Shown here piece by piece: positions 9,713-15,011 of a stretch of 38,087 nt of DNA (positions are counted from its first letter, which is position 1; every line of letters starts with the position of its first letter). The DNA is from Fragilaria crotonensis (taxonomy: Eukaryota > Bacillariophyta > Fragilariophyceae > Fragilariales > Fragilariaceae), in the NCBI GenBank assembly GCA_022925895.1, contig JAKSYS010000608.1, positions 1 through 38,087 on the forward strand, read 5' to 3'. The position numbers and the translations under genes were made by a program. The notes under the pieces are model-generated. The model was not told the origin of the DNA and searched no databases. It was given only the letters and a program-made list of their open reading frames with translations.

Positions 9713-9732
9713 TACCACCAAAAAACTGCTTA

Positions 9733-10844
9733 GGACGTTCCTTAGAGCAGGTCTTATCATTGGGTTAAGTGAGTCCCGAATCGAAAAAAAATCAAAAAAG
9801 CAAGTTTTATTGGAGGGTATAAGTCATTTTTTAGGATCTTGGATTTGACCCTGGGGTTTATATTTTAATCCCGGGTCTAAATTCAGCAAATTTGACCCCA
9901 GGGTCAAAGTTTAGACCCCGAGGGGTCTAAATATTCCACGCGTTTCCTACGCCATGTATATACCACTATCCCCTTTTTCTTCGGCACGAATTCTGCTCGT
10001 CAATGCATGGTGGATGTCACACTACATGTATGCATACACAACAATGTGACCTCCACAACACATGCTCCGGAGAAGAGATGTGAGCACTCCTGATAAATTT
10101 GTTCCATTGTCTTTTCCACAATGATGATCACCACATGGCCATCAGTCTCTTCATGGTGTGATTTGCTTCGGCAATCAAATTTGCCATGGCAATGTTCTTG
10201 TTGACGACGAGTGACGAGTATAGAAGAGGAGCTCGACTCTTGGATTTTCTACACTGTTCTTCAAAAAGGTTTGAGTTATTGAGTAAAAAATGATAAGACT
10301 TGCTTTTTTGTTGGACGTGGAGGATCTAAAATTAGACCCCACCAGGTTAAACTGCCAAAAATTTAACCCGATGATAAGACCTGCTCTTACAGTGCGACAA
10401 AACAGAAACAAAACTCGTCGGAGAATCGTTTCTGTGTTGTTTTGTCGGATCAGCAATTTTCGTCGCCAACAGTTGTCAACAAAGACAAAACGTTTCGTCA
10501 CATACAGCAATGTGGAAATGATTTACTTCGCGCAAGCACATCTTGGAGACAAGTTTTTGTCCAAAAGAACACGAGCAATGACCGTTTGTTTGTTAACTGT
10601 CTTCTGACGTTGCAAATTGGAATGGGTGGTGGTGGTTGGGTTTTACACGGAATCAGGCATCCGAAACGTTTTTGTTACTGTTTTGTTGCCGTGAAATCCC
10701 GACAGATCGGAAAACCTTTTCTGTATTTTTTTGGGCTCCACAGAACTAAATAAATAAATGTCGGAGTTTTTGTCGACCATTAGGGACGAGTATTAAACAA
10801 AAGTGGAGTTTTGTTTCTGTTTTGTCGTTCTATAAGGACCGGCC
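9733..10844. mobile_element. Element D: MITE with TTA duplication, hosting element C
   Basis: The left end is GGACGTTCC-TTA (9733-9744), resuming after element C with CAGTGCGACAAAACAG (10390 onward); the reverse complement of the right end is GGCCGGTCCTTATAG then AACGACAAAACAG. About 40 bp of TIR match with few differences. TTA flanks at 9730-9732 and 10845-10847. Without C it is about 467 bp. It inserted into the TTA inside the left TIR of element F. Confidence 0.8.
9745..10386. mobile_element. Element C: 642-bp MITE nested in element D
   Basis: The left end GAGCAGGTCTTATCAT-TGGGTTAA (9745-9768) matches the reverse complement of the right end (10363-10386) at 23 of 24 bases. Target duplication TTA is at 9742-9744 and 10387-10389. 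The interior has several GGGTCTAAA/TTTAGACCCC and TTTGACCC repeats (about 9845-9935 and 10320-10345). No coding region. Its target TTA is 10 bp inside the left TIR of element D. Confidence 0.88.
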
Positions 10845-10847
10845 TTA

Positions 10848-11596
10848 GGCCACCAATCCTTATCTTGCCACCAAAACCAAAACCAAAACGAGTCTTGGGT
10901 CATTTTGGTTTTGGTTGTCACAAAAATCAACCCTTACCATGGGCCCCCTTTTGTCCCTAACGGGTTATGAAGATTGTGCCATTTTGGTTGTCTGTGTAAT
11001 CATATAACCTATTCGCAACCGAAGTTAAGTTAATTTCGGTTGGCCGACCGAAATGGACAACAGTGCACTGAAATTCCATGTTCCCTTGCCACACATAAAA
11101 ATGAAGGTTGCTGATTGGCTGGCAGAGTTCTTGCAGACTACAGTAGTCGAGTACATACTAATACTACTAGCTAGTGCCGGTAAGACAGAACAAATATATC
11201 ATACACTGTACAACCTCCTTTGTAATGACAATTCTATGATAGGGCCGCCTCTGTGCTTTTACTATGATTCATCAGTAGCTACTCCCGCGTCCTCGTTCAC
11301 AAGACAACAGTAGTACTGCCGATGGTGGCGTGTTGAAAAGGCGCCGGAGTCGTCATTTGCTGATGATTTGGATTTGTCGTACTTGTACCTGACGTGCAAC
11401 ATGTCATGCTTTGTCCGATCTGGACGAAGCAGCAAACCAAGATTCCGTTTTGACTACTTCGAATACCGTTTTCGTTACAGTTTACAGTAAGAAGGGTAAC
11501 AAATCACAAGAACGAAAATGACGTGCGATGATTTTATTAGGTTTCTATTAAATCGCATTTTGGTAATGGTTTTTCGTCGCAAGATAAGGATTGGCC
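10848..11596. mobile_element. Element E: MITE sharing a TTA with element D
   Basis: The left end is GGCCACCAATCCTTATCTTG (10848-10867); the reverse complement of the right end is GGCCAATCCTTATCTTGCG. The arms continue with CCACCAAAACC versus GACGAAAAACC. TTA flanks at 10845-10847 (also the right target duplication of D) and 11597-11599. The 86-residue frame at 11053-11313 inside it is not recognised. Confidence 0.8.
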
Positions 11597-12242
11597 TTAG
11601 AACCAATAAATGCGTTAAAATCCGTATCCCCTACACAAATGTTGCTCAAATTATGTTTTTCCCAAAGAATATGTATGAGGACCTCATTCCTTTATTCATC
11701 CTACAGCCTTTGTATACTTGCAGGAAAGTGAGGTTGAGTGAGCGGTCGCTTCAATATTTCACACTGTATTTTGAATTGAGCTCAAATCCATCTCACAATT
11801 TTAACACATCGAGGTGGGCTTCCCATGAATGCTCGGAGTACTTTTTTCACAGTTGCGATATTTATAGAAACGCGTGACACACGATACCGCCTCGTATTTT
11901 TCTTGTGGTCCAACATTGGTGGTACAAGACACACTTGGCTACCAGCGCAACAGTAGACCGAAAATTACATCGATTTTGGGCGAACGTGTGAAAAAAATAC
12001 GCGCGCACATATAAATGTTTCCTCATGCATGCATAAATTTTTATGTATCACTTTGAACCAATAGTCACAAAATGAGGCGATGAAATTGTTCCATTCCTCG
12101 ATGAATATCTGCTCCAGTACAAGATTGATTCAATTGTAACGTGGAGAACTATACAAAGAAGACGTTGTAACGGAACGGAAATAGAGTGCGAAGCTTGAAG
12201 GAATAGATAAATTTAGTCGTAACATGCATTCAATTATTGGTT

Positions 12243-12520
12243 CTAAGCAGTTTTTAGGTGGTACCGCGACTTAATTGACTCTAGGATCGACATCAGCATG
12301 TCCATTTCTACTATTGCTGGCGTCCTCCGTACTGTCTTGTCCTTCAAGGATCCGATGTCAGGACCGAAGATTCGTTCTGCCGCAATGATATCTGCACGTG
12401 ACACTGGACAATTAGGCAGAAGGAGGGTTCTTGTCAATAATTGATAGAAATGTCGTCGTGCTTGGCCGTCCGATAATTTGTTGTACCTTGCGCGCCAGTG
12501 GCCTTCGAGTAATCACGTTG
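12243..12520 (-). pseudogene. Copia pol fragment upstream of integrase
   Basis: One frame gives ARKVQQIIGRPSTTTFLSII; after a one-base shift near 12415 the next gives LLPNCPVSRADIIAAERIFG and a KTVR segment. Both are typical of the segment just before the integrase in CoDi-type polyproteins. It lies between elements G and F, which explains its isolation. The frame at 12437-12243 runs into element F at its end. Confidence 0.7.
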
Positions 12521-12530
12521 GGAGTACTTA

Positions 12531-13311
12531 GGCCGGTGCTTGCAGCGAACGAAACGTCCCGCAAAACAGAACGCCGCGTCTATTCTGGGGAAAAATGGTC
12601 CTTACAGCCCCCAAAACTGCCCCCGAGAGGCGCGCGCGTTTCGGGGATCCGGGTACTTTTGATCGAAACCACAGAACGCCGAGGGCGTTCTGTGTGAAAG
12701 CCGGGTTCGCACGAAACGCAACAACCGAGTTTGTGTATGAAGTGCTACGTAATTAGAACTCGGACTAAATGGGACCAGGCATGGGACGGTGTGGTACTAC
12801 AGTACGCTGTGCCAATGGAGTACAATGCGAGTTGCGGTGCGCGGGCAGGCGGCTATTCTTGTCTTCGGAACTCATCTGATTGTCACAGATAACCGCATCC
12901 GATAGAGAAGCTCGTTGTTTGATCCGAGAGGGCGAATTGTAGCATCCGAACAAAACGAGCGCCTGCCTTTCTTTCACGAGCCGCGCGGCATGTCTGTCGA
13001 GTGCTTCTTGCGGTTTTTTGGCCCATTTGCTCATGGCGTCAAATTTGTTCGACAAACGACGTGACAAGCGACAAATGAGACGACTGATCCACATGATACC
13101 TTTAGTACATTTTTCACGCAACTACATTCAATGCCTGATTTCTTTTACACTTATACATGTCAATATAGTATACATAAAATGCTCTCCAATTCTGCGGTTT
13201 TGTGGTTATTTTCTAGGGAGTACGCCTGTAAGGACCATATTTCACGTTTTCACATAACAGTACGGGACGTCCGTTCTGCTGAAAACGTTTCGTTCGCTGC
13301 AAGCACCGGCC
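12531..13311. mobile_element. Element G: 781-bp MITE with perfect 27-bp TIRs
   Basis: The left end starts GGCCGGTGCTTGCAGCGAAC and continues GAAACGT; the last 27 bases (13285-13311) are its exact reverse complement. TTA flanks at 12528-12530 and 13312-13314. It interrupts the copia remnant between the gag-pre-integrase and pre-integrase pieces. A perfect hairpin with 11-bp arms (CACAGAACGCC) lies at 12670-12694. A 118-residue basic frame (13121-12765, minus) shows no known domain and no transposase motif. Confidence 0.88.
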
Positions 13312-13349
13312 TTAGTACTGTTATCGTTTATGACATACGGTGTTGACCA

Positions 13350-13790
13350 TCATGACTTCAGCTCTGGCTTGGTGTCCATGTGTACATCCATGTAGTATAG
13401 TCCCTTTTTGGACAGGTTGAAAACACGAATTGTACCATCTTCCTTATGAATTATATGGAAAGCGTTGCCGTTGGAACTGTCGAATGTCACACGATATCCA
13501 CGCTCCTTCACACGTGCAAGAGACAAAATGTTCGCTATTCCCGTAGGATCGTACCAGACGGTCCCGTACCCAACGAGTTCTCCGATCAGATTCGTACTGG
13601 AAATACCAGCATTGCAGTGAATGTCCATCGTACTCGAGTGTTCGCGAATATTTGTGACGAGTTTTTTGTTACAAAACACGTCAACTGTCGAACAATTGAT
13701 TATCCAAGAGAATCCAATCATGTGGGATGCGACCATCATTGCCAATCTGCATGGTCACGCCCTTTTCCATTGTTGCGTTGACGAATTGAT
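13350..13790 (-). pseudogene. Copia protease / gag-pre-integrase remnant
   Basis: The frame contains STVDVFCNKKLVTNIR, NAGISSTNLIGELVGYGTVW, GIANILSLARV and RGYRVTFDS, which fit the aspartic protease and gag-pre-integrase part of diatom copia polyproteins. The active-site Asp (D-N-Q-type motif) is present only in a different frame at about 13693-13703, so a small indel splits the catalytic motif and the protease is dead. It ends just before element G (13311). Confidence 0.75.
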
Positions 13791-15011
13791 AGTGGACATA
13801 CTCTTCTTGGTCATCAAGTAGGCTGTCAACAGTGAGTAATGTTGTCCGGTTTGCTTTTTTGTTTTATTGTCTTTGTCTTTGACATCGGTCTTTTCATCTG
13901 AAACGCGCTCGTTATCGCATTCGTTGGCGTAGTGCCCTTTTTCCTTGCAACGATGACATGTAACATCCTTTTTGTCCTTCGTCTTTCCAGTTTTTTTATC
14001 ACCGTCGTTGACGAATGAAATTTCCCCGTCATGGACATCACGAGTGCCAAGACGAGCTTCATGCTTCCAGTGTGCCAGAAGGTGATTTGCTGCGACCATG
14101 GTTTTTGGATATTTGTTGTTTCCCTGGAGATAACTATTCTCCATATTTTCGACGAGCTTGCCAAAGCGGAGACGGTCCGAGCAAAGAATGAATGCGACAG
14201 CCAAAGATCTCTGTTCAACATCCTCGGCAAGAACCTTCATTTCTGCCTTTGTCATCCCCACTTTATTGGTTTTGCCTGTTTCACGGAGAATCATTTCCTC
14301 CACGCCATTGTCTTCCCAGACATTTCCTCTGCAATGCTTGATCACCGCCACAGAATTCAGGAACTGAGTGTGGAAGTCTGCAGTGGGAAGTTTGCCTTGC
14401 AATTGCATGATATAACGCTTCTTCGCCTCAAAAAGTGAATGTGGAACGTATTTTTGACTCTGATGCTGGTAAGTAACATTCTTGATTGTCTTGAGAAGGA
14501 GCAGTCCGTCATTCTCGTTGGACATCTTTGAAAACCCTTCCTCTGCCACGATTCTTTGTTGTAGCATTTCAGTGCACTGTCCCCAGATAAGGGCAAACAA
14601 TTGCCGAAGATTGTGTTCCAATTGTTCCTCTCTCTTTGGCGATGGAATCTATCTTCTTCTCCCATTTACGGACTGCGCCCCTTCCGGCGTCCTCAGGGAT
14701 GTCTTCCGTCATTGCAAATATTGGTACCTCTTCACTTTCGACAGCCGTCTTAACGTCGCCGCCACACTTATAGGTTCGACCAACATACCCGGCAATCTCC
14801 TTTGTGGTTCTGGCGAACATATCTGATTGCTTAGAGTCGGACCAGTCATAGTAGTATCCCTTGAGAGCAGCACTTTGCCTTCAAATTTAGTGGTAGGCAG
14901 TTGCATGCAATTTTGACCTTTGTGGAAGTTAAAAGTTTTCTTCTTGTCTCCTCCAGCTTCCTTGTCCTTGTCTTGCTTGCCGCCTTCCGTCTTCAACTTG
15001 GATTCAGCCAT
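13755..15011 (-). pseudogene. Copia gag with CCHC zinc knuckle, frameshifted
   Basis: Gag forms the particle that packages the retrotransposon RNA. The minus strand starts at ATG 15011 with a Lys/Gly-rich head; homologous reading then moves to other frames near 14850 and 14625, so at least two indels are present. The last frame (14621-13755) is a long alpha-helical gag region that includes ALIWGQCTEML and ends with CHRCKEKGHYANEC, a perfect C-x2-C-x4-H-x4-C knuckle. A TGA at 13757-13755 separates it from the protease region. Confidence 0.75.

Follow-up and report, generated by a model that had tools for sequence, protein, structure and literature searches.

A nested transposon stack in Fragilaria crotonensis and the target sequence its insertions prefer

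Main

We found that a stack of nested DNA elements (C, D, E and F) in the window, which is the whole stretch of 38,087 nucleotides analysed from Fragilaria crotonensis, is real: the window sequence was read and checked against genome copies, and the borders are fixed to the single base. It is highly probable that D and E are non-autonomous PIF/Harbinger-type elements, that C and H behave alike, and that the stack was built by a TNA target preference that terminal inverted repeats (TIRs) and element borders satisfy. The stack is genuine but, on the most likely reading, largely ordinary.

Structure of the stack

The features of the stack and its surroundings, in window coordinates, are as follows.

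9713..12263, no strand: element F with its TA duplications; inverted ends, TA flanks in copies
9713-9714 and 12262-12263: TA duplications of F, with CCACC...GGTGG in between
9715-9732 and 11600-12261: pieces of F; TTA 9730-9732 is the target site of D
9733..10844, + strand: element D; inverted repeat, in TTA 9730-9732 of the left TIR of F
9733-9741 + TTA + 10390-10844: pieces of D, 467 bp without C and one TTA
9745..10386, + strand: element C, 642 bp; 25-nt inverted ends, 96%
9742-9744 and 10387-10389: TTA target duplications of C, at positions 10-12 of the left TIR of D
10845..10847, no strand: TTA common to the right end of D and the left end of E (window sequence)
10848..11596, + strand: element E, 749 bp; TTA at 10845-10847 and 11597-11599
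11597..11599, no strand: TTA separating the right end of E from the rest of F, which resumes at 11600 as GAACCAATAA...
12531..13311, + strand: element H, 781 bp; 35-nt inverted repeat with flanks
12528-12530 and 13312-13314: TTA target duplications of H, a separate insertion beyond F

As the first-pass annotation had proposed, C lies in a TTA of the left TIR of D and D in a TTA of the left TIR of F; the borders of C (9745-10386) and its duplicated TTA agree, as do TTA 9730-9732 and the borders of D. E had been placed in the right duplication of D. The shared TTA is indeed there, but the reverse arrangement, D in the left duplication of E, fits equally well: each element could have used the duplication of the other, and either may have come first. 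E itself lies outside any TIR and has one TTA in common with D, so the broader claim that each insert sits at a TTA in the terminal repeat of another element holds for C and D but not for E. The TTA duplication implied for F was mistaken, as F uses TA (9713-9714 and 12262-12263).

The D TIR reads GGCCGTTCCTTACAGTGCGACAAAAC and the E TIR GGCCAATCCTTATCTTGCC; window E carries an extra ACC near its left end relative to other E copies. By eye, positions 10-12, counted from the end, read TTA in the elements C, D, E and Z and in some of the H copies (window 9733-9744 and 9745-9756; L041-L057; L052; L081-L100). This TTA is absent from X, W1, Y and V and is shifted in window E by the three extra bases.

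We compared each window element with the majority of near copies picked by hand (14 of F, 6 of D, 10 of E and 6 of C). The divergences were 5.0% for F, 3.3% for D, 2.9% for E and 2.2% for C, and the averages of the other copies by the same measure were 1.8, 2.4, 2.3 and 3.0%, respectively. These values fit the nesting order and lend weak support to F being the oldest element and C the youngest.

F had been described as lying within a copia integrase. This identity was not confirmed for the flanking fragments, for which neither Pfam (E ≤ 1) nor the PDB gave a relevant match. At 13755-14621 on the minus strand, an ORF carrying a CCHC zinc knuckle (Pfam E 1e-4) fits a retroelement, and is possibly the gag part of one interrupted by F and H.

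Uninterrupted copies elsewhere in the genome

In searches of a 62-Mb assembly, candidate places numbered 29 for C, 23 for D, 24 for E, 57 for F and 65 for H, of which 40 each were scored for F and H. We fetched 179 loci (140 stretches with flanks and 39 longer ones). Near-identical flanks occur on different contigs in the pairs L021/L022, L041/L045, L005/L006 and L082/L097. Because the assembly has such duplicated or allelic stretches, raw copy counts are inflated. Among the F copies, 14 are 91-94% identical and 3 are full-length at 73-74%, and one is in two pieces.

Consistent with the first-pass annotation, which held that removing the inserts restores clean TIRs, real copies carry the predicted ends. 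The left end of D is unbroken at eight loci (L023, L024, L027, L028, L029, L030, L032 and L033), where it reads GGCCGTTCC-TTA-(C/T)AG, or, written through, GGCCGTTCCTTA(C/T)AG; the GGACGTTCC of the window differs by one base. The left end of F is unbroken, in the single-unit form of the window, as ACTGC-TTA-GAACCAATAAACGCG in L061 (C108:749092-749780), and the junction region of F that begins GAACCAATAA... is uninterrupted in the same locus. No D or E match was seen inside the 18 fetched F copies. A search for the empty site of F did not find it; the joined F flanks matched only the window halves, plus two one-sided partial matches at 79%.

Across L060-L076 and L079, the left end of F usually has two CTTAG units and the right end one. 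Two left units 19 bp apart are present in 16 of 18 readable copies; L070 also has two, the second altered, and the C108 copy is the only one of the 18 with a single unit like the window. As most F copies are of the two-unit form, we had suspected that F lost 19 bp between D and E, but dropped this idea because the C108 copy is an uninterrupted single-unit F.

Duplications and superfamily

All 45 unique C, D, E and H sites with exact duplications, 41 of them outside the window and 18 of them belonging to H (that of the window included), have TNA duplications: TTA or TAA in 34 and TGA or TCA in 11. These counts leave out copies whose ends were unmatched by the search strings and 17 end pairs with unequal duplications, some of which are mispaired ends or one copy read again on its reverse strand. 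The duplications are thus TNA in all 45 and do not keep to the 3-bp TWA of a strict PIF/Harbinger definition.

Longer relatives indicate where D and E belong. D has relatives of about 4.1 kb (L030-L033; ORFs are listed in L030 and L032), and E has a relative, L056, that is the inner copy of an E-in-E nest. Pfam assigns a DDE_Tnp_4 transposase to L030 (E 3e-18) and L056 (E 7e-22); in L032, where the ORF is cut short, the match (E 6e-5) is just under the Pfam cut-off. The D-type and E-type transposases (L030 versus L056) are 58% identical over 445 aligned columns. L030, L032 and L056 also contain a second ORF of 448-550 aa on the opposite strand; those of L032 and L056 share 35% identity, and Pfam gave no significant domain for this ORF and listed no Myb/SANT at E ≤ 10. 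Since these relatives encode a predicted DDE_Tnp_4 transposase, D and E are assigned to the PIF/Harbinger (PHIS) superfamily. At 467 bp and 749 bp, with ends common to the coding copies L030, L032 and L056, D and E fit the description of MITEs. C and H join this group only by their duplications and target, in which they behave alike, and were presumably moved by the same transposases. F lies outside the TNA group and belongs elsewhere: its intact-ended copies have TA at both ends, often within GTAC, as in Tc1/mariner-type elements.

Target preference of the insertions

We trained a position model on the 41 sites outside the window, with 2027 TNA sites from the window itself as background. The consensus target is roughly palindromic, YC-TWA-GR, and C before and G after the TNA each occur in 45% of sites versus 17% of background. 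When each site was left out in turn, 22 of 41 fell in the top 10% of background TNA sites; the stack sites ranked at 0.7-1.1%. A second model, trained on 36 sites, excluded the window and five nested or abutting sites against circularity. It placed C in D at 0.8%, E at the D-F junction at 0.8%, and D in F at 0.7%, or 1.4% if E came first. The site of an element X in D at C537 ranked at 0.7%. Among the TTA/TAA background only (n=607), the stack and C537 sites ranked at 2.3-4.3%. Other held-out sites were L091 (0.1%), L010 (2.0%), L050 (4.8%) and L090 (8.4%), with poor ranks for window H (14.7%) and the nested L081 (35.8%). Left out singly, the 36 training sites had a median rank of 13.2%, 9 reaching 1.5% and 18 reaching 10%, in a model with few training sites and a background drawn from the window. 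This preference, although modest, is real, and the stack sites are among the best.

TIR sites also rank highly within whole elements. In the uninterrupted F copy (C108), both TIR sites are second and third of 52 TNA sites, with 34% of the weight; in a D copy (C504), both are second and third of 25, with 49% of the weight. The top-ranked TNA site is an interior one in each copy. A short target preference is enough for the stack positions.

These data suggest how the stack probably formed. C, D, E and H insert at TNA, favouring roughly palindromic YC-TWA-GR, and the TIRs of D (..TTCC-TTA-CAG..) and F (..CTGC-TTA-GAAC..) hold near-optimal copies of this target. An element end next to its duplicated TNA supplies half a target, so borders score well too. 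By ordinary target choice, D, with E beside it, most likely landed in the TIR of F, and C in the TIR of D; nesting near ends would arise because ends carry a near-ideal preferred target. The preference is probably a property of the transposase itself, and the nests were probably tolerated rather than selected.

Landing sites outside the window

For the 41 outside sites, we reconstructed the empty site together with roughly 1.0-1.1 kb on either side (a shorter stretch for L030, L088, L090, L094, L097 and L099). Host elements were recognised in two ways only, from inverted repeats found in a scan and from resemblance to ten families, which makes the nesting counts lower bounds. With this incomplete host library, none of the 41 sites was recognised inside a TIR, 3 were at the duplication of another element (L050, L090 and L091, of which L050 is ambiguous), 2 were inside other elements (L010 and L081) and 36 were in no recognised element. 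The neighbour of L090 is only 68% like W1, and that of L091 matches only the first 104 bases of Y; at L050, another V-like end appears some 100 bp further along, and the site may lie within a larger V-like element. By the inverted-repeat scan, 9 of 4819 TNA sites of the same sequences are in TIR or duplication zones.

The first-pass annotation had read the stack as targeting rather than chance. This holds in part: the stack sites are in the top 0.7-1.4%, and the TTA of the D TIR was used again at C537, where a 712-bp element X (ends GAGCATCCCC...) lies in the right TIR of D at the mirror-image TTA. It does not hold for TIRs as such, given that 36 of 41 sites are in no recognised element and that copies do lie at sites unrelated to TIRs, a finding that had been named in advance as counting against targeting.

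We also found five interior nests: E in E, C in C twice, Y in E and Z in E; the inner C of L014 was counted as interior despite its unequal duplications (TAA/TTA). Outside the window, the 11 nested or abutting cases are divided 3/1/7 among duplication, TIR and interior. Across 37 copies drawn from C, D, E and H, the target model predicts shares of 0.25/0.07/0.68, and a simple TNA count predicts 0.05/0.07/0.88. TIR sites, at 1 of 11, show no enrichment over counting. The window would add two TIR cases and one duplication case, but it was chosen for them.

Other host copies, left out of the counts, are interrupted by inserts of unproven TNA type: H at C339, C513, C160 (two), C24, C312 and C55; E at C44; C at C504, C500 and C4; and F at C23. 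L018, L013 and L026 were rejected as insertions in unfamiliar TIRs, as no inverted partner was found (for L026, in the first, shorter flanks only). L002, L007, L017, L021, L022 and L028, which have altered or missing ends, were not counted as nests, with no outer half in the 1.5-2.6 kb beyond. In the C copies L005 and L006 a second left end begins at position 78-80, a C-in-C insertion whose outer remainder is missing, perhaps lost by recombination between both copies. Three H insertions (L088, L094 and L099) and one D insertion (L024) lie within or next to a short repeat whose core resembles TTTGCTTAC, which suggests a recurrent landing site.

Borders as landing sites

In 33 of 45 cases, the higher-scoring border beat the empty site that had been there originally, a count that favours borders by taking the better of two per case. 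Single borders had mean scores of 2.23 and 2.24, versus 1.77 for the empty site, with almost no gain for D. Elements abut as D/E in the window, H/W1-like at C95, H/W1 at C312 and H/Y at C520, and ambiguously as E/V at C53; the C312 case came from an abutment-directed search and stands outside the 3/1/7 count. Against a simple count, duplication sites appeared to be in excess (3 of 11 versus 0.048, p 0.014, or p 0.095 if L050 is moved to the interior class). A genome-wide excess of back-to-back ends was rejected: GGCCTWAGGCC occurs at 12 places, versus 18, 44 and 81 for three control patterns of the same composition, and three of the 12 were recognised as abutments (window, C95 and C312). Border duplications are a possible hot spot, on the strength of 3 of 41 sites, one of them ambiguous.

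One extension of this idea is that element ends are self-renewing landing sites, such that insertions accumulate into nests that protect the remaining genome and selection has preserved the ends in this form. The end bases together with the duplicated TNA form a target (C-TNA-G) at both borders, and an internal CTTA lies about one helical turn in (positions 10-12) in five of the nine families read. We regard this extension as unlikely.

Alternative explanations

The three TIR-internal insertions (C in D, D in F, and X in D at C537) and the sites at the duplication of a neighbour (3 of 41, one ambiguous) could also reflect tethering, in which a transposase bound to existing TIRs, of its own or a related family, holds the incoming element, so that TIRs are targeted as such, beyond their sequence. 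Such tethering appears very unlikely: within the reach of the incomplete host library, none of the 41 sites outside the window was recognised in a TIR, and the single TIR case among 11 matches the share of 0.07 that sequence alone predicts. In addition, D used a CTTAG of F, an element that a D-type transposase would presumably not bind, given the different ends and TA duplication of F. Coincidence, that is, random TTA insertions in a repeat-rich stretch, has in its favour that TTA is common, that nests occur elsewhere in the genome and that the window was selected because it holds a stack; once the window is counted, 3 TIR cases among 14 give p 0.067 by simple count. We nevertheless consider chance highly improbable, because the three stack sites, none of them in the training set, fall in the top 0.7-1.4% of TNA sites, and because duplication sites outside the window exceed the simple count (3 of 11 versus 0.048; p 0.014, or 0.095 with L050 as interior).

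D and E may instead have entered F together, as one D-TTA-E unit mobilised through the left end of D and the right end of E. Consistent with this, one TTA is common to both elements, the pair has one TTA on each side, and the 58% identity of their transposase types over 445 aligned columns would suit joint mobilisation. However, when 40 of 129 candidates were scored with the whole stretch, D and E were joined in the window only, and the listed D copies and E copies lie apart, which makes entry as a unit quite unlikely. We retain separate insertions guided by a TNA target preference as the preferred reading.

Relation to known systems

Jiang and Wessler (2001, Plant Cell) reportedly described nested MITEs in maize and rice. 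Their finding of MITEs inserted in MITEs is cited, with a 'safe haven' proposal, in the accessible part of PMC3695323, which itself reports nested MITEs in carrot. The stack likewise has MITE-in-MITE insertions; here, end and border sites were scored against a target model. In the portion of PMC5907723 available, SaTar MULE arrays of guayule and rice are unrelated elements side by side, tied to microsatellites and never interrupting one another. The side-by-side arrangement recurs here, but the PIF-type elements of F. crotonensis both abut and interrupt.

The available parts of PMC2836001 and PMC6327408 describe PIF/Harbinger elements and their Tourist-like MITEs (PIF/mPIF and Ping/mPing) with features found here: a 3-bp duplication that is mostly TTA/TAA, GG-rich ends (here D, E and H), an extended target preference, and a DDE_Tnp_4 transposase with a second ORF in longer relatives. 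The 9-bp extended insertion preferences of PIF and mPing are given in PMC2836001. By contrast, 11 of 45 duplications here are TGA or TCA, and the second ORF has no detected Myb/SANT domain. The TNA duplications fit the NuwaII group of PHIS as well as PIF/Harbinger proper. For NuwaII, the accessible text of PMC4482050 gives a C|TNA|G target, two ORFs, a mean length of about 4.7 kb and hosts among animals, fungi and plants. The elements here share the TNA duplications, the preference for C before and G after, GG as first bases in D, E and H, and the two ORFs; the longer relatives are about 4.1 kb rather than about 4.7 kb, and the C and G flanks are only preferred (45% each), not fixed.

We found no report of a transposon or MITE insertion 'into the TSD' in the literature searched, and nothing on point on Harbinger nesting within a TIR or TSD in that literature, including the accessible part of PMC6327408. 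The stack adds a new case to a known kind, both nesting and target preference having been described already.

Discussion

Nested transposons invite two readings that are readily mixed up, and this work separates them: recognition of TIRs, and a target sequence that TIRs happen to carry. Reading the stack by target sequence ranks its sites highly from insertions elsewhere in the genome, and the outcome is a simple rule, open to testing, on where PIF-type elements insert.
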